NCBI RefSeq assembly: GCF_013170805.1
Contig: NZ_CP051293.1
Span: 3,168,001 to 3,232,000, forward strand
DNA length: 64,000 bases
From: Mesorhizobium sp. NZP2077
GTDB taxonomy: Bacteria > Pseudomonadota > Alphaproteobacteria > Rhizobiales > Rhizobiaceae
Direction: 5' to 3'
Shown: positions 7,260 through 34,976 of the stretch, piece by piece
Layout: each line of letters opens with the position of its first letter
Position numbering within the stretch: position 1 is the stretch's first letter
The notes under the pieces: generated by a model
What the model was told of the DNA's origin: nothing
The model's input: the letters and a program-made list of their open reading frames with translations, nothing else
The model's database searches: none
Position numbers and translations under genes: made by a program

Positions 7260-9254
7260 GTGGCGGCCAATCGTCGAAACGGGACGGCGTCTCCGGCGCC
7301 TGGGCTGGATGACATTCTTGCGGCCGCGGCACCCCACCCGCGAACCGCGTTGCCCAATGTGGCGACCACCGTCACCACGGTGGCCGCACTCTATTTCGGG
7401 CGCGAGGTGTTCCTGCCGATCGCCATTGCGCTGCTTTTGACCTTCGCGCTGGCGCCGCTTGTCTCGGCGCTCAAACGGGTCGGCATTCCCCGGATCGCCG
7501 CTGTCATCGCCAGTGTGCTCGGCGCCTTCGCGGCCCTTGCCTTGTTCAGCTTCATCGTCGCCACGCAGGTCAGCGAACTGGCGCAGAATATCCCGGTCTA
7601 CCAGACCAACATCCTGGCCAAGATCCGCTCGCTCAAGGAAACCGGCGTCGGCGGCGGGATCATTTCGAGATTGAGCACCGTGGTCGAGCGTGTCGGCCAG
7701 GAGATCGACAAGCAGGACGCCACGCTGCCGGCCGCCACACCGGACAAGCCGCCGCGCGAGCCGGTGCCGGTCGAGATCGTTGCGCGGGAAAGGCCGCTCG
7801 AAGTCCTGCAGAACATCGTCGGCCCGCTGCTCAGCCCGCTCGGCTCGGCGGGGCTGATCATCGTCGTCGTCATCTTCATGCTGCTCGAGCGGGAGGATTT
7901 GCGCGACCGCTTCATCCGGCTTGTCGGCTATGGCGACCTTCATCGCACCACCGAGGCGCTTCGCGATGCGGGAAAAAGGGTCGGTCGCTATCTCTTGATG
8001 CAAACGATGGTCAACATCGTCTACGCCATACCGATCGCGATCGGTCTGTGGGTCCTCGGCATTCCCAATGCCTTGCTGTGGGGGCTGCTGGCGCTGGCGC
8101 TGCGTTTCGTTCCCTATATCGGCCCGGTCATCGGCGCGCTGCTGCCGCTGTTCCTGGCGCTGGCGGTGGCGCCCGGCTGGTCGCTCGTCGCGTGGACGGC
8201 TGCTTTGTTCGTGGTGATGGAACTGGTCACCGGCAATGTCGTCGAACCCTGGCTCTACGGGTCGCGAACCGGACTGTCGCCGCTGGCGATCATCGTCGCG
8301 GCGATCTTCTGGACATGGCTATGGGGGCCGCTCGGGCTGGTGCTGTCGACGCCGCTCACCGTCTGCCTGGTGGTGCTGGGCAGGCACGTGCCGCAGTTCG
8401 AGTTCCTCGACGTGCTGTTTGGCAACGAGCCGGTGCTCGAACCGCATGCGCGGCTCTACCAGCGGCTGTTGGCCGGCGACCCGGACGAAGCCACCGACCA
8501 TGCCGAGGAAATGCTCGAGGAAAAATATCTGGTCGACTTCTACGACAAGGTGGCCATTCCCGCACTTCTTTTGGGCGAGCGCGACCGCGTGCGCGGCGTC
8601 ATGGGCGACCTGCAAAGGCGGCAAGTGGCGGCCAGCGCGCTCGCGCTGGTGGCCAATCTCGACGACGACGCGAAGGAGGAAGCGGGTGAGGAGGATGCGC
8701 CGCACGTCGCAGGGGAGTCCGGGGAGGCGGCCGAGGCCAGCGATGCCGCCGCTGAGGACGCGGCCGACCTGCCCGATGGCACTGGTATGTCGGTGCTTTG
8801 CGCCGGCGGGCGAGGGGAACTCGACGATGCGGCCGCCGCGATGCTGGCGCAGGTGCTGGAAGTCCAGGGTGCGACGGCGTCAAAGGTGGGCTTTGCCGAC
8901 ATGGAGCCGTCAAGCATCCGCGGCCTCGATCTCGAGATCGTCGACACCGTGGTGGTCGGCTTCCTCAACCGCGATTCCGTCAAGCACGCCCGCTTCCTGG
9001 TGCGCCGGCTGAAGCGGGCGAAGGCGGCCCTCAGGGTGGGCATCGTGTTCTGGTCGGAAACCGGCAATGACGACAAGGAAGCGGCCGCCAGGCTGGCGCA
9101 GGACATCAACGCGGATTTTGTCGCGCACGGCATGGTGGACGCCGTGACGGGCGCGCTGTCGAACGAGCCGCCGGTTGCGCTGAAGCTGGTCGCCAAACGC
9201 CGCGCGAGACGGCAGCGGGCGGCGCCGAGGAAGGTTGCGGCGGCGGCGAGCTAA
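7260..9254 (+). CDS. AI-2E/PerM family transporter with long soluble C-terminus
   Basis: A 664-residue protein from GTG 7260, chosen for GGGGGAGA upstream; ATG 7191 is the other candidate. The first ~400 residues hold about eight membrane segments arranged as in AI-2E/PerM transporters (paired N-terminal helices, a periplasmic stretch, then LRFVPYIGPVIGALLPL and WLWGPLGLVLSTPLTVCLVV). The remaining ~260 residues are soluble: a helical part, an acidic Ala/Glu-rich linker, and a domain with FADMEPSSIRGLDLEIVDTV and a basic tail. Transported substrate unknown; family members include autoinducer-2 exporters and Na+(Li+)/H+ antiporters. Confidence 0.85.
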   Translation: MAANRRNGTASPAPGLDDILAAAAPHPRTALPNVATTVTTVAALYFGREVFLPIAIALLLTFALAPLVSALKRVGIPRIAAVIASVLGAFAALALFSFIVATQVSELAQNIPVYQTNILAKIRSLKETGVGGGIISRLSTVVERVGQEIDKQDATLPAATPDKPPREPVPVEIVARERPLEVLQNIVGPLLSPLGSAGLIIVVVIFMLLEREDLRDRFIRLVGYGDLHRTTEALRDAGKRVGRYLLMQTMVNIVYAIPIAIGLWVLGIPNALLWGLLALALRFVPYIGPVIGALLPLFLALAVAPGWSLVAWTAALFVVMELVTGNVVEPWLYGSRTGLSPLAIIVAAIFWTWLWGPLGLVLSTPLTVCLVVLGRHVPQFEFLDVLFGNEPVLEPHARLYQRLLAGDPDEATDHAEEMLEEKYLVDFYDKVAIPALLLGERDRVRGVMGDLQRRQVAASALALVANLDDDAKEEAGEEDAPHVAGESGEAAEASDAAAEDAADLPDGTGMSVLCAGGRGELDDAAAAMLAQVLEVQGATASKVGFADMEPSSIRGLDLEIVDTVVVGFLNRDSVKHARFLVRRLKRAKAALRVGIVFWSETGNDDKEAAARLAQDINADFVAHGMVDAVTGALSNEPPVALKLVAKRRARRQRAAPRKVAAAAS

Positions 9255-9442
9255 GGCAAAATCGGAGCGCTTAGAACGACCGAGTTGGGCCTGAAGCTGG
9301 CTGCAGACGCCGCGTCGCGTAAGAATGTCCGCGCCTCATGATAGTCGTTTGGAACAGTTTCGTCGCCCCTTATGCAGGCGCAGCTCCTGTCTGAAACTGG
9401 AATTGCGGCAGCCGCGAGAGAAGCGCGAATCCGGTTGCCTGC

Positions 9443-10318
9443 CTATCTGATGTGCCTTCTCAGGATGTCGATGAAAGCGGCGACCTTTGGCTTTCTAAAG
9501 GCCGATGGCAACTGGACCGCCTGGATGGCGATCGTCCGCGAGGGAAAGCCTGGCAGGAGATGAACGAGCCTGCCTTGGGCGAGGTCATCACCCAGAAAAA
9601 CATGCGGGCAGATGAAGATGCCCTTGCCTGCCAACGTGGGCAGCAGGCAGGCAGGAGGGCTATTGGCGAGGAAGGGGCCGCTGATCGGTATCTGGACCTG
9701 CTGGCCATCGATGAGGAAGGGCCAGCGGTTGGGGTCGGGATTGTTGGCGTCGCGAATGCAAATGTGAGCCGAGAGTTCGTCGGGGTGGACCGGCGCACCA
9801 TGCCGCTCGATATAGGACGGGGCGGCGACAACCAGCAGCCTTGCTTCGCCGAGCTTTCGGGCAACAAGGCTCGAGTCCTTCAGCGTGCCGATGCGAACAG
9901 CGAGGTCGAAACCCTCCTCGGCAAGATCGACATATTCATCGGATAGTTGCAGTTCGATCGTCACCTCCGGGTGGGTTTCCATGAACTCGAGCGCGGCTGC
10001 GGCGACGGTCGTTTCGCCGAAAGTAAGCGGTGCCGCCACGCGCAGTGTTCCCTTCAAGCCGCGAGAGGATTCGAGCGAGATATCCAGGAGATCGATCTCA
10101 TTCAGAACGCGGCGGCACCCCTCCCGGTAGATCCGCCCGTCATGCGTCAAGGACATCGACCGGGTGGTGCGGTGAAGCAGGTTCATCCCGAGTTCCGCTT
10201 CAAGCGCGGCTATGTATTTGCTGACAAGCTTTCCGGTGATGCCGAGGCGTTTGCTGGCGGCGGCGAACGATCCGGCCTCAACCACCGCGACGAAGGTGCG
10301 CATCCCCTGAATCCTGTC
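9443..10318 (-). CDS. LysR family transcriptional regulator
   Basis: A 291-residue LysR protein from GTG 10318, which has GGAGA correctly spaced and gives the standard start VDRIQGMRTFVAVVEAGSFA. The winged helix occupies residues 1-60 (AASKRLGITGKLVSKYIAALE), and the rest is the periplasmic-binding-like effector domain (GTLRVAAPLTFGETTVA... LSDEYVDLAEEGFDLAVRIG). It is divergent from a VOC-SnoaL-ABM operon and probably controls it; a symmetrical TCGCCA-TTT-TGGCGA site at 10360-10374 lies between them. The effector-domain signature is that of the CrgA/AaeR-like branch. Confidence 0.9.
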   Translation of the reverse strand, partial: DRIQGMRTFVAVVEAGSFAAASKRLGITGKLVSKYIAALEAELGMNLLHRTTRSMSLTHDGRIYREGCRRVLNEIDLLDISLESSRGLKGTLRVAAPLTFGETTVAAAALEFMETHPEVTIELQLSDEYVDLAEEGFDLAVRIGTLKDSSLVARKLGEARLLVVAAPSYIERHGAPVHPDELSAHICIRDANNPDPNRWPFLIDGQQVQIPISGPFLANSPPACLLPTLAGKGIFICPHVFLGDDLAQGRLVHLLPGFPSRTIAIQAVQLPSAFRKPKVAAFIDILRRHIR

Positions 10319-32323: not shown

Positions 32324-32842
32324 ATGGCGACTTCGATCGAACGCGCAGTGCTGGCCGGTGGCTGTTTCTGGGGCATGCAGGATCTGATACGGCGTTATCA
32401 CGGCGTCATCTCCACCCGTGTCGGCTATAGCGGTGGAGATGTGCCCAACGCCACCTACCGCAACCACGGCACCCATGCCGAAGCCATCGAGATCAATTTC
32501 GATCCGGCGGTGATCAGCTATCGGATGTTGCTGGAGCGCTTTTTCCAGATCCACGATCCGACGACGCGCAACCGCCAGGGCAACGATGTCGGGATGAGCT
32601 ACCGTTCGGCGATCTACTATACCAGTGACGAGCAGAAGCGCGTCGCCGAAGACACCATCGCCGACGTCGATGCCTCCGGCCTGTGGCCCGGCAAGGTCGT
32701 CACCGAAGTCGCGCCAGTTGGTGCCTTCTGGGAGGCCGAGCCCGAACACCAGGACTATCTGGAGAAATATCCCAACGGCTACACCTGCCATTTCGTCAGG
32801 CCAGGCTGGAAGCTGCCGGTTCGAGAAAAGGCCGTGTCATAA
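32324..32842 (+). CDS. msrA: Peptide-methionine (S)-S-oxide reductase
   Basis: 172 residues from ATG 32324 (GAGGAGACGTG upstream). The catalytic motif GGCFWGMQD puts the reactive Cys at residue 14; [20 protein letters not shown] and [12 protein letters not shown] are MsrA-specific. A second Cys in [10 protein letters not shown] may act in resolution. It repairs oxidised methionine with thioredoxin as reductant. The next gene downstream is a tiny peptide gene, 141 bp away. Confidence 0.95.
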
Positions 32843-32898: not shown

Positions 32899-32955
32899 GC
32901 CAACTGTCAGCCGCCGCCTGGTGATTGACAGTTGGCGGCGTTGCTGGCCAACTGT
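32899..32955. promoter_or_regulatory. Triplicated GCCAACTGT half-sites before the peptide gene
   Basis: GCCAACTGTCA (32899-32909) and TGACAGTTGGC (32926-32936) are a perfect 11-bp inverted repeat with a 16-bp spacer. A third half-site GCCAACTGT is at 32947-32955, 29 bp before the peptide ATG. Likely operator of a dimeric regulator; a transcribed hairpin is the alternative. Confidence 0.5.
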
Positions 32956-32983
32956 GCAGGCTGATTTGCTTCAGGAGATACGC

Positions 32984-33079
32984 ATGAAGAAAGTCTATGA
33001 GAAGCCAGTTCTCGTGAAAGGCGGCCGCCTTTCCGATGTTACCGCCACGGTGCCGTCTTCAATTGTCAAGGCTCCCTGA
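32984..33079 (+). CDS. Putative RiPP precursor with lasso-type leader motif (31 aa)
   Basis: AGGAGA lies six nt before ATG 32984. The peptide begins MKKVYEKPVLVKGGRLSDVT; Y5, P8, L10, G14 and T20 match YxxPxLx3Gx5T, the leader signature recognised by the RRE/B1 protein of lasso peptide systems. The predicted core after T20-A21 is TVPSSIVKAP. It has no Asp/Glu for a macrolactam ring and does not start with Gly, so it is not a classical lasso peptide. No B- or C-type enzyme is adjacent; a formyltransferase gene follows 59 bp downstream. Peptides with this leader are frequent in Mesorhizobium as orphan putative RiPP precursors. Its modification is unknown. Confidence 0.65.
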   Translation: MKKVYEKPVLVKGGRLSDVTATVPSSIVKAP

Positions 33080-33138
33080 CCGACGGACTTACTTTGCAAA
33101 CCGGTCAGGCCAACCGATGAGGCTGGCTTGCCGTCTGA

Positions 33139-34203
33139 ATGCCCGCCGATGGGGATCGGCTTGATGTGCGCCTTGAACGGCTGGCGCTGTTGAGCCCGCA
33201 GACCGGCTCTAGCCGGGTTTCGGCCGTATTCGTACTCGACATAACCCCTTACACCGGGCCGCTACTGGCAGGATGGCTTGAAGCAGGTCATCACATCCGT
33301 GCGATTGTCGTCCCGGGATCCCGGCAACGCCAGAAACATTTCAGCACCAGCAAGTTTCGCCGAAGGCTGAGGCGCAAACTGCTGCTCAAACGCTATATCG
33401 GCAACACGCCGGCAAGGGTGATCGAATTTGGCCGGCCCTATGATTGGGGCACACTCGGCAGCCAATTGTCGGAGGTCAATGCCGATGTGTTGATCTGCTT
33501 TGCGTTTGCGGCCCTCATTCCAGCGGAGTTGCTTGGTGCTTTCCCGAAGGGCGGGCTCAATCTTCATCCAGCGTTGCTGCCCAATTATCGGGGTCCGCAC
33601 CCTATCCATCGCCTGGCCGTCGACGGCCAGCACGCCGTTCATGGTGGTGTGACGCTGCACAAGATGTCTGCCGGTTTCGATGATGGCGACATTCTCGGGC
33701 AAGTGCCGTTTTCCGAAGCAGACTGGGTGTCGCTGCAAGCCCTGACCGACAGCATGGCGACCGCGATGTGCGCGCTGGTGAGCGAGGTAGCGCCCGCCTA
33801 TTGCAAAGGCAGCCTGAAGGGGATGCGGCAGCCGGCCGGCGATTTTGTCTGGGCGCGGCTTGAGGCGGCCCACACAATGATTTCGCCTGACATGTCGGTC
33901 GAGCATGTTGCCCTGATGTGGCATGTGCTGGGCACTGTTCCTGGCATCTATCTCGATGTCGCCGGGCACAAGATCAGGCTGGCGTTCCAGGTCAGACGGC
34001 TAGGCCCGCCGACGGGCAAGGCGCCAGTCCGGCGGTGGGGGATCGTGGAGTTCGATCTTGCCGATGGCAGGGTCCGGTACTTCACCTATGGCCGCCTGCT
34101 CAAACGGCTCGTAAAATTGCATGCTACCTTCGCGCGCCCTCGAGTCAGAAAGCCGTCCCCTGAAATCCGGGTTTTCGGCAAGGCGGAAGATGGGCAGACG
34201 TAA
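33139..34203 (+). CDS. Formyltransferase family protein
   Basis: 354 residues from ATG 33139, although the first ~27 are not conserved-looking and the true start is unclear. The fold begins at VFVLDITPYTGPLLAGWLEA. The formyltransferase centre is complete: N141 and H143 in LNLHPALLPNYRG and D184 in FDDGDILGQV, as in methionyl-tRNA formyltransferase and sugar-nucleotide N-formyltransferases. N10-formyl-tetrahydrofolate is the likely donor. It is too divergent and too isolated to be Fmt. Acceptor unknown; the RiPP-like peptide just upstream is a candidate. Confidence 0.8.
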   Translation: MPADGDRLDVRLERLALLSPQTGSSRVSAVFVLDITPYTGPLLAGWLEAGHHIRAIVVPGSRQRQKHFSTSKFRRRLRRKLLLKRYIGNTPARVIEFGRPYDWGTLGSQLSEVNADVLICFAFAALIPAELLGAFPKGGLNLHPALLPNYRGPHPIHRLAVDGQHAVHGGVTLHKMSAGFDDGDILGQVPFSEADWVSLQALTDSMATAMCALVSEVAPAYCKGSLKGMRQPAGDFVWARLEAAHTMISPDMSVEHVALMWHVLGTVPGIYLDVAGHKIRLAFQVRRLGPPTGKAPVRRWGIVEFDLADGRVRYFTYGRLLKRLVKLHATFARPRVRKPSPEIRVFGKAEDGQT

Positions 34204-34367: not shown

Positions 34368-34976
34368 ATGTTTTCAGGCGCACAGATTTCCCTATACCCC
34401 ATGACCGACGATTTCGTCGGCGTCATCCTTGGCGCGCTCGGCGCGCTCGATCCCTACCGGGACAGGCTCAGGATCGAGACCGACGACATCTCGACCTTGC
34501 TGGTCGGGCCGCCGGAGGTGCTGTTCCCGGCTTTGCGCGACCTGTTCGTCGCGGCGGCGCTGAGCGGCAAGCATAGCGTGCTGTCGGCGGCCATTTCGCG
34601 CGGCTGCCCGGGCGAGCCGGACGATCCGATCTGCCGCTCCGACGCGTTTGGCGGGCCTGCCGGGCCCCTCGGCCCACGCAAGGAAGCCGCCATCAGCGCC
34701 GTGCGCAACGCCCCTGCCACCGGCCAGCCGGCGGCGGCGCAGTTCTCGCTCTACGTGATGGGCACCGGCGACCACATGGACGAGATCTACGGCTGCATCG
34801 ATTTCCTGAAACAGTCAGGCGTCTACGATCGCTCCAAGAACTTCTGCACCAAACTGCGCGGCGATACGGGCGCGATCTTTTCGGCGCTGAATGAGGCCTT
34901 CTGCCGCTTCGGGCCGGGTGCCGGCCACGTAACCCTTGATGTCACGATTTCGGCCAACAGCCCGTCTGCTGTCTGA
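34368..34976 (+). CDS. YkoF-like thiamine/hydroxymethylpyrimidine-binding protein
   Basis: 202 residues made of two related ferredoxin-like halves, as in YkoF: residues 4-90 (GAQISLYPMTDDFVGVILGA) and 120-200 (AAAQFSLYVMGTGDHMDEIY ... FCTKLRGDTGAIFSALNEAF). YkoF binds thiamine or its pyrimidine part in the cytoplasm. It is the first gene after a TPP riboswitch and before the ThiX-ThiZ-ThiY transporter, which fits a role in delivery of thiamine precursors. Confidence 0.85.
   Translation: MFSGAQISLYPMTDDFVGVILGALGALDPYRDRLRIETDDISTLLVGPPEVLFPALRDLFVAAALSGKHSVLSAAISRGCPGEPDDPICRSDAFGGPAGPLGPRKEAAISAVRNAPATGQPAAAQFSLYVMGTGDHMDEIYGCIDFLKQSGVYDRSKNFCTKLRGDTGAIFSALNEAFCRFGPGAGHVTLDVTISANSPSAV

Follow-up and report, generated by a model that had tools for sequence, protein, structure and literature searches.

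Dispersed lasso-type precursor peptides in Mesorhizobium, a cyclase-less maturation locus of putative phosphoserine type and a candidate peptide formyltransferase

The window, a 64,000-nucleotide stretch of the Mesorhizobium sp. NZP2077 genome, carries a gene for a 31-residue peptide with a lasso-type leader and, directly after it, a gene for a formyltransferase family protein (FT). Judged from the genes, we lean moderately towards the reading that the peptide belongs to a dispersed, linear, cyclase-less phosphoserine RiPP system and that the FT N-formylates it, most likely on Lys29. The parts of this reading differ in firmness: the peptide is very probably a RiPP served in trans by a maturation locus at C1:233683-236595, the FT probably acts on it in some form, and Lys as the site of the FT is an even call. 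A genus-wide version, in which one cyclase-less lasso-type machine serves dispersed tiny precursors whose cores are hypervariable save for an invariant Ser, tailoring enzymes are acquired locally and the FT makes N-epsilon-formyl-lysine, is put forward tentatively and falls just short of an even call.

The precursor gene (32984..33079, + strand; product MKKVYEKPVLVKGGRLSDVTATVPSSIVKAP) is preceded by a Shine-Dalgarno sequence AGGAG (32973..32977, +), which stands 6 nt ahead of the ATG and is kept in the relatives L031, L032 and L146. Translation bears out the first-pass annotation, which had described a 31-residue peptide that matches YxxPxLx3Gx5T (Y5, P8, L10, G14, T20) and carries K29; the pattern has one match in the six frames of the window, and 30 mononucleotide shuffles give a mean of 0.1 and a maximum of 1. 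The leader, residues 1-21 (32984..33046, +), is delimited by sequence and alignment, contains the YxxPxL RRE-binding motif and ends in VTA. It has both YxxPxL and a Thr at -2, a position that is often Thr, Val or Ala across the family, and by analogy with the specificity of lasso B2 peptidases it would be cleaved after A21. The core TVPSSIVKAP (33047..33076, +) has neither Asp nor Glu, as had been claimed; Ser25 or Ser26 is the likely kinase acceptor and Lys29 the likely formyl acceptor. The peptide is sub-threshold for both NCBIfam lasso_leader_L3 (NF033521, 17.5 bits, cut-off 19) and Pfam DUF5972 (19.6 bits, cut-off 22.6), and it is taken as a real precursor because it is conserved directly 5' of the FT in the close relatives L031, L032, L033, L034 and L146 and because the same genome has 13 further profile matches, which is decisive. 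In an alignment of 24 precursors Y5, P8, L16 and A21 are invariant, while G14 is not conserved; none of the refuting outcomes named in the first-pass annotation was observed.

The conserved neighbours of this gene pair, both assigned by family scan and neither counted in the system, are MsrA upstream (32324..32842, +) and a YkoF-family protein downstream (34371..34976, +). A strong hairpin with a 12-bp outer stem (window 32899-32936, z -3.65) lies between msrA and the peptide gene and is possibly an msrA terminator or a leader structure. By a weak method, no promoter-like site was found, and no terminator-like site in the gap between peptide and FT.

The FT gene (33139..34203, +) starts 59 bp after the precursor stop when read from ATG 33139; the database copy has 345 aa, which fits a start at the alternative GTG 33166, and the first nine residues from the ATG are uncertain. 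The product scores 70.1 bits against PF00551 (cut-off 26.1), which places it in the formyl transferase superfamily with Asn-His-Asp, and N141, H143 and D181, presumably catalytic as in Fmt and PurN, are invariant across 26 aligned FTs. The earlier description of a formyltransferase 59 bp on, with an intact Asn-His-Asp centre and not obviously an Fmt, thus holds. TIGR00460 (Fmt) is its top NCBIfam match at 89.1 bits, below the cut-off of 201.5, and a separate true Fmt (259.5 bits) is encoded elsewhere in the genome; the Fmt reading is rejected on these two grounds, and a housekeeping Fmt is unlikely.

Among 119 same-genus genomes the FT is present in 27 (E <= 1e-20), all of which also encode the maturation-locus kinase (hypergeometric p=3.7e-6); among the 16 genomes whose FT is unlinked to the kinase, the co-occurrence has p = 1.0e-3. 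Scanned with the FT alignment, the species-genome collection yields 27 loci, all in Mesorhizobium or Rhizobiales/Hyphomicrobiales, by two strict peptide patterns of the FT that more distant relatives would escape, and a protein search with the FT gives 87 matches at E <= 1e-30, the organisms among the matches listed being Mesorhizobium. The FT occurs in three contexts. In the first (n=12, including the window) MsrA, preceded by a PMT_2 gene, is followed by peptide, FT and mostly YkoF. In the second (n=4) the FT adjoins genes that appear from their sequences to be rsmI- and yraN-like, and the peptide is directly upstream on the opposite strand. In the third (n=11) the FT lies between the nucleotidyltransferase (NTase) and the kinase of the maturation locus itself. 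The FT tree unites these cluster FTs in a single group (support 94/93) and pairs the window FT with that of M. huakuii (98/98).

The first-pass annotation had staked its idea on a co-occurrence of the two families, and a precursor does lie beside the FT or its operon in 23 of 27 FT loci. At 14 of the 16 unlinked FT loci a precursor adjoins the FT gene (L040 and L044 have none), and the precursor is divergent from the NTase-FT pair in 9 of 11 clustered loci (L046 and L047 have none). An adjacent precursor is absent from the FT loci of G061, G118 and M. comanense (L154), and no precursor was found on the NTase side in G101, G102 and strain CU3 (L168). A distant FT with 29% identity to a cluster FT (G090:C1:4548084-4548998) is found in a genome without a B2 match and probably has another function. 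In G391, a genome of another genus, an FT that is only 25% identical but shares the catalytic pattern lies in a cluster of the same type.

The maturation locus of the window's genome is composed of NTase, kinase, B2 and B1 genes, has no FT and is located 2.96 Mb from the window peptide, so the RRE and the protease, which according to the first-pass annotation must act in trans or not at all, have been located and would serve the peptide from there. The NTase matches PF14907 with 88.8 bits, B2 matches NF033537 with 67.6 bits (cut-off 33) and B1 is a PqqD-like RRE. The HprK-like kinase retains His-Thr-Ala-Gly, the P-loop GTGKS and Asp-Asp, and the His, P-loop and Asp-Asp residues are reported as important in BsfK (PMC10368454). 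The context-3 cluster has, besides the FT, an NTase (PF14907, 94 bits), an HprK-like kinase (TIGR04352, 29 bits, below the cut-off of 200), B2 (NF033537, 72.7 bits, cut-off 33) and a PqqD-like RRE (PF05402, 41.8 bits). An Asn-synthetase-like cyclase C was recognised neither in the maturation locus nor in the context-3 clusters, and no exporter or signal-peptidase-like gene was recognised in the window-genome locus or its immediate flanks. Family scans ruled out a 455-aa neighbour as Asn synthetase, as it is the HprK-like kinase, and a 635-aa neighbour as transporter, as it is propionate-CoA-ligase-like. The locus is flanked by this propionate-CoA-ligase-like gene and by DhaK (dihydroxyacetone kinase), and an Acyl_transf_3 gene (L087 17528-17821) lies downstream. 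A separate canonical lasso cluster, about 22 kb away (C1 ~258,900-262,000; L088 16904-19895, into L089), holds its own precursor MENKTEKQEYEAPSLTVHGSIETITQGTGGDTALDGVFPIHTPKGQLTFS, B1, B2 and an NF033535 cyclase (763 bits); its next ORFs, of 340 and 614 aa, are kinase- and ABC transporter-like in appearance.

The genome has 14 dispersed precursors in all, the window peptide included; this goes beyond the first-pass annotation, as do the kinase and nucleotidyltransferase of the trans locus. A profile built from 24 precursors, the window peptide among them, gives 14 strong matches (E <= 2e-5) between 0.84 and 3.2 Mb of the window's genome; the other 13 were outside the profile, and one of these is degenerate. 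Precursors are found in all 80 kinase-positive genomes of the genus (3-20 each, median 8; kinase E <= 1e-20, n=119), and the 39 kinase-negative genomes have zero, except for a single match each in G112 and G114, so that 0/39 have three or more. The median number of precursors is 11 in FT-positive genomes and 7 in FT-less kinase-positive ones (119 genomes, p=3e-5 with ancestry ignored). A family-level search matched 15 of 297 genomes, 10 of them outside the genus, and in seven of the eight non-genus genomes examined the precursors (1-10 copies) and all four enzymes lie no more than about 6 kb apart; in the eighth, G382, none of the four was found on the two stretches examined. In L362, 10 tandem precursor genes occupy about 1.8 kb (8317-10103) and adjoin B1, B2 and the kinase. 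An AMP-dependent ligase and a GNAT are encoded near the nucleotidyltransferase in L362 (10258-12480, with an acyl-carrier-like protein) and in L370 (11859-13882), the two clusters scanned for them, and from their sequences they are possibly an alternative N-acyl module that replaces the FT.

Around the other 13 precursors of the window's genome, 16 flanking ORFs at nine places were family-scanned, and most are housekeeping-like (LepA, aldehyde dehydrogenase, solute-binding protein, RsgA, IalB, polymerase IV-like). The view that these neighbours are only housekeeping genes was overturned by three candidate tailoring enzymes, which are an Acyl_transf_3 protein (L215 2973-4685) beside precursor C1:2915311, a radical-SAM protein with a lysine-2,3-aminomutase C-terminal domain (L219 4747-5841) divergent from C1:3025042, and a GNAT (L216 4081-4653) about 0.6 kb from the three precursors at C1:2940849-2941164. 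Six precursors of this genome, C1:840673, 2107695, 2915311, 2940849, 2940967 and 2941164, have two-Cys cores (CPISQPC, CTPSTC, CPISQC, CLSVC and CTPSNPC).

Ser is present in all 183 distinct Mesorhizobium cores of up to 20 residues, and shuffles of residues among the cores give a mean of 142 and a maximum of 154. In 157 of the 183 the first Ser falls on core position 3-5, and in other genomes 19 of 19 distinct Cys-pair cores have a Ser between both Cys. The search profile spans some core positions and may therefore be biased toward Ser; this is countered by the same profile having recovered Ser-free cores in other genera (8 of 34, all eight with Thr). PMC10368454 and PMC13381572 report Ser3 phosphorylation for BsfA and LppA, respectively, and since the Ser is invariant and a kinase of the same kind is present, the core Ser is, by analogy, the probable phosphoacceptor of the HprK-like kinase.

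Beside unlinked FTs, 18 of 19 distinct precursors (three of which share one core) have a core Lys, which is kept while the rest of the core varies, as in TVPSSIVKAP, LIPSSQIKT, AGPLSPKPG, VNQSLPPKELP and VTGSPPTKTPA. The proportion is 11/87 in FT-less genomes (Fisher p=6e-12), 19/102 for non-adjacent precursors of FT-positive genomes (p=2e-10) and 1/18 on the B1 side of maturation loci (p=2e-8), and these tests ignore shared ancestry, with about four independent FT contexts. In FT-less genomes core Lys is counted in 3/20 precursors of maturation loci (NTase side 3/8, B1 side 0/12; the background is 39 loci, 18 of them with a precursor) and in 8/67 scattered ones; for the non-adjacent precursors of FT-positive genomes the counts are 17/94 scattered, 1/6 on the B1 side and 1/2 at a maturation locus with the FT elsewhere. 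Other genera without FT have 7/34. On the NTase side, core Lys is present in 9 of 12 precursors with a clustered FT vs 3 of 8 FT-less (p=0.11, not significant), the three Lys-free ones in FT clusters being extra tandem copies, and by locus in 10/10 vs 3/7 (p=0.015), so the like-for-like contrast inside the maturation locus is weak.

A strict need of core Lys for the FT is ruled out, as core-Lys precursors are found also in FT-less genomes (in four of the six whose precursors were nearly all read), and it is adjacency to an unlinked FT that discriminates. The Lys-free exception next to an FT is L038/L150, with core LASPSTQPT, and its genome, G094, has no core-Lys precursor among its three. G061 and G118, which have no adjacent precursor, and G101 and G102, which have none on the NTase side, do have a core-Lys precursor elsewhere in the genome. 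In the G391 cluster a Ser or Thr is next to the Lys in both precursors.

From the genes, their conservation and co-occurrence, the invariant Ser, the Lys retention and the intact catalytic motifs, we infer the following chemical steps and their order. The YxxPxL leader of the window precursor would be bound by the discrete RRE (B1) encoded 2.96 Mb off, and the HprK-like kinase would phosphorylate the invariant core Ser. The NTP_transf_5 enzyme would put a further group, nucleotidyl or hexose, onto the phosphate, and the FT would N-formylate the peptide, most likely at N-epsilon of Lys29, with 10-formyl-tetrahydrofolate as the donor. The B2 peptidase would then cut the leader off after Ala21 and leave a linear 10-residue product.

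A less likely alternative is that the FT formylates an amino- or nucleotide-sugar, which the NTP_transf_5 enzyme then sets on the phosphoserine while the peptide amine remains untouched. The related PsmN places hexoses on the phosphoserine of pseudomycoidin (PMC9266682). ArnA is among the closest solved structures to the FT (78 bits), and in 12 loci a PMT_2 glycosyltransferase-like gene is the second gene upstream of the FT. Acyl_transf_3-type enzymes are usually sugar-directed, and such genes are found near the maturation locus and, as an Acyl_transf_3-SGNH gene (L369 5237-7399), adjoining the G391 FT. However, the FT is far under the cut-off of the equivalog models for sugar-nucleotide and related formyltransferases (PRK08125 ArnA 61.5/777, PRK06988 55.4/316 and PRK07579 19.3/238 bits). 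No amino-sugar pathway and no explicit sugar-nucleotide context, which the first-pass annotation had named as contrary evidence, was recognised near the FT, where the neighbours in relatives were mostly judged by eye, and the retention of core Lys beside unlinked FTs would be left unexplained.

It is rather improbable that the acceptor of the formyl group is not the Lys but the N-terminal amine that B2 cleavage exposes on the core. Such an acceptor would account for the Lys-free FT-adjacent precursor of L038 and would fit L362 and L370, of other genera, which have an AMP-ligase and a GNAT instead of the FT and few core Lys; the F domain of linear gramicidin synthetase is, in addition, in the superfamily of the FT (47 bits). 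The core N-terminus is variable beside unlinked FTs, though, where 18 of 19 precursors keep the Lys. The FT might instead have nothing to do with its neighbour, or be a surplus Fmt-like enzyme, its adjacency an inherited coincidence. This would agree with its top match to TIGR00460 and with the lack of an adjacent precursor at two of the 16 FT loci that lie outside the maturation locus, yet the true Fmt is elsewhere in the genome, the maturation-locus kinase is present in 27/27 FT genomes and the association is repeated in three contexts plus one distant genus, so we regard it as quite improbable.

A decaying relic without product is very improbable: the FT frame is broken by a frameshift in L056/L172 (Mesorhizobium sp. 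CA14) and in L171 (M. qingshengii Jales19), but in the window the reading frames, Shine-Dalgarno sequence and catalytic residues are intact, and synonymous and replacement changes from the window number 4:2 to L031, 6:3 to L032, 4:4 to L146, 8:15 to L033 and 9:15 to L034. Hardly credible, finally, is that the cyclase encoded in the separate cluster near C1:259-262 kb acts in trans and turns the peptide into a true lasso. This reading is rejected in spite of that cyclase with its B1 and B2: the 10-residue core is short and lacks Asp and Glu, at positions 7-9 as elsewhere, an acidic residue at these core positions is found in one of the 19 precursors next to unlinked FTs, and the distribution of the precursor family follows that of the kinase from the locus without cyclase.

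The proposed linear, cyclase-less pathway resembles several described systems. The linear polyphosphorylated peptides (LPP) of Bacillota (PMC13381572) share the YxxP lasso-type leader, the discrete RRE, the HprK-like kinase acting on core Ser (Ser3), the NTP transferase and a core set without cyclase, and are often co-resident with a lasso cluster, as is the Mesorhizobium locus. The peptidase of LPP systems is the signal-peptidase-like LppS whereas it is B2 in Mesorhizobium, an MsbA-like exporter is present whereas none was recognised in the Mesorhizobium locus, the leader is YxxPxVLxHQ, and the precursors have 35-200 aa and are in the cluster while those of Mesorhizobium have about 30 aa and are dispersed in the genome. 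An FT is part of the Mesorhizobium system only, and PMC13381572 does not contain the word "formyl".

The bsf system of Bradymonas sediminis (PMC10368454, with kinase action on core Ser3) and the paeninodin and pseudomycoidin pathways (PMC9266682) share B1, B2, the HprK-like kinase and the nucleotidyltransferase, but they have a C cyclase and make lasso peptides, and the word "formyl" is absent from both papers. Albusnodin (PMC9266682) is a lasso peptide with N-epsilon-acetyl-Lys, and its cluster acyltransferase AlbT is tied to a conserved core Lys as the FT is here; AlbT is an acetyltransferase acting on a real lasso, whereas Mesorhizobium has a formyltransferase and no cyclase. The prochlorosins resemble the present system in having a single promiscuous maturation enzyme, ProcM, for many precursors, and differ in lanthionine chemistry and an unrelated leader. 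Prochlorosin precursors are also scattered over the genome.

The Mesorhizobium system, known here from its genes, appears to be a linear phospho-RiPP variant that is a member of neither the LPP nor the lasso family. It is set outside LPP because it has B2, no signal-peptidase-like enzyme or exporter in the locus, dispersed precursors and an FT, and outside lasso systems because the cyclase and the ring residue are missing; a lasso product is unlikely. In the open-licence PMC literature, a scope that leaves most subscription papers outside, we found no report of an FT acting on this type of RiPP, none of the dispersed Mesorhizobium precursor system among the best-ranked matches, and N-epsilon-formyl-lysine for no RiPP. 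Lasso peptide and formyltransferase are co-mentioned there, once each, in one work on Acetobacteraceae genomes.

The invariant Ser amid otherwise variable cores gives a testable substrate rule for HprK-like peptide kinases and for the unexplained NTP_transf_5 enzymes, and genome mining based on clusters would probably miss precursors that are far from the maturation locus. If the proposed reading is true, formylation would join the enzymatic modifications of RiPPs, and Mesorhizobium, a genus known for its legume symbionts, would have a lasso-type machine freed of its cyclase that serves 3-20 precursor genes per genome.
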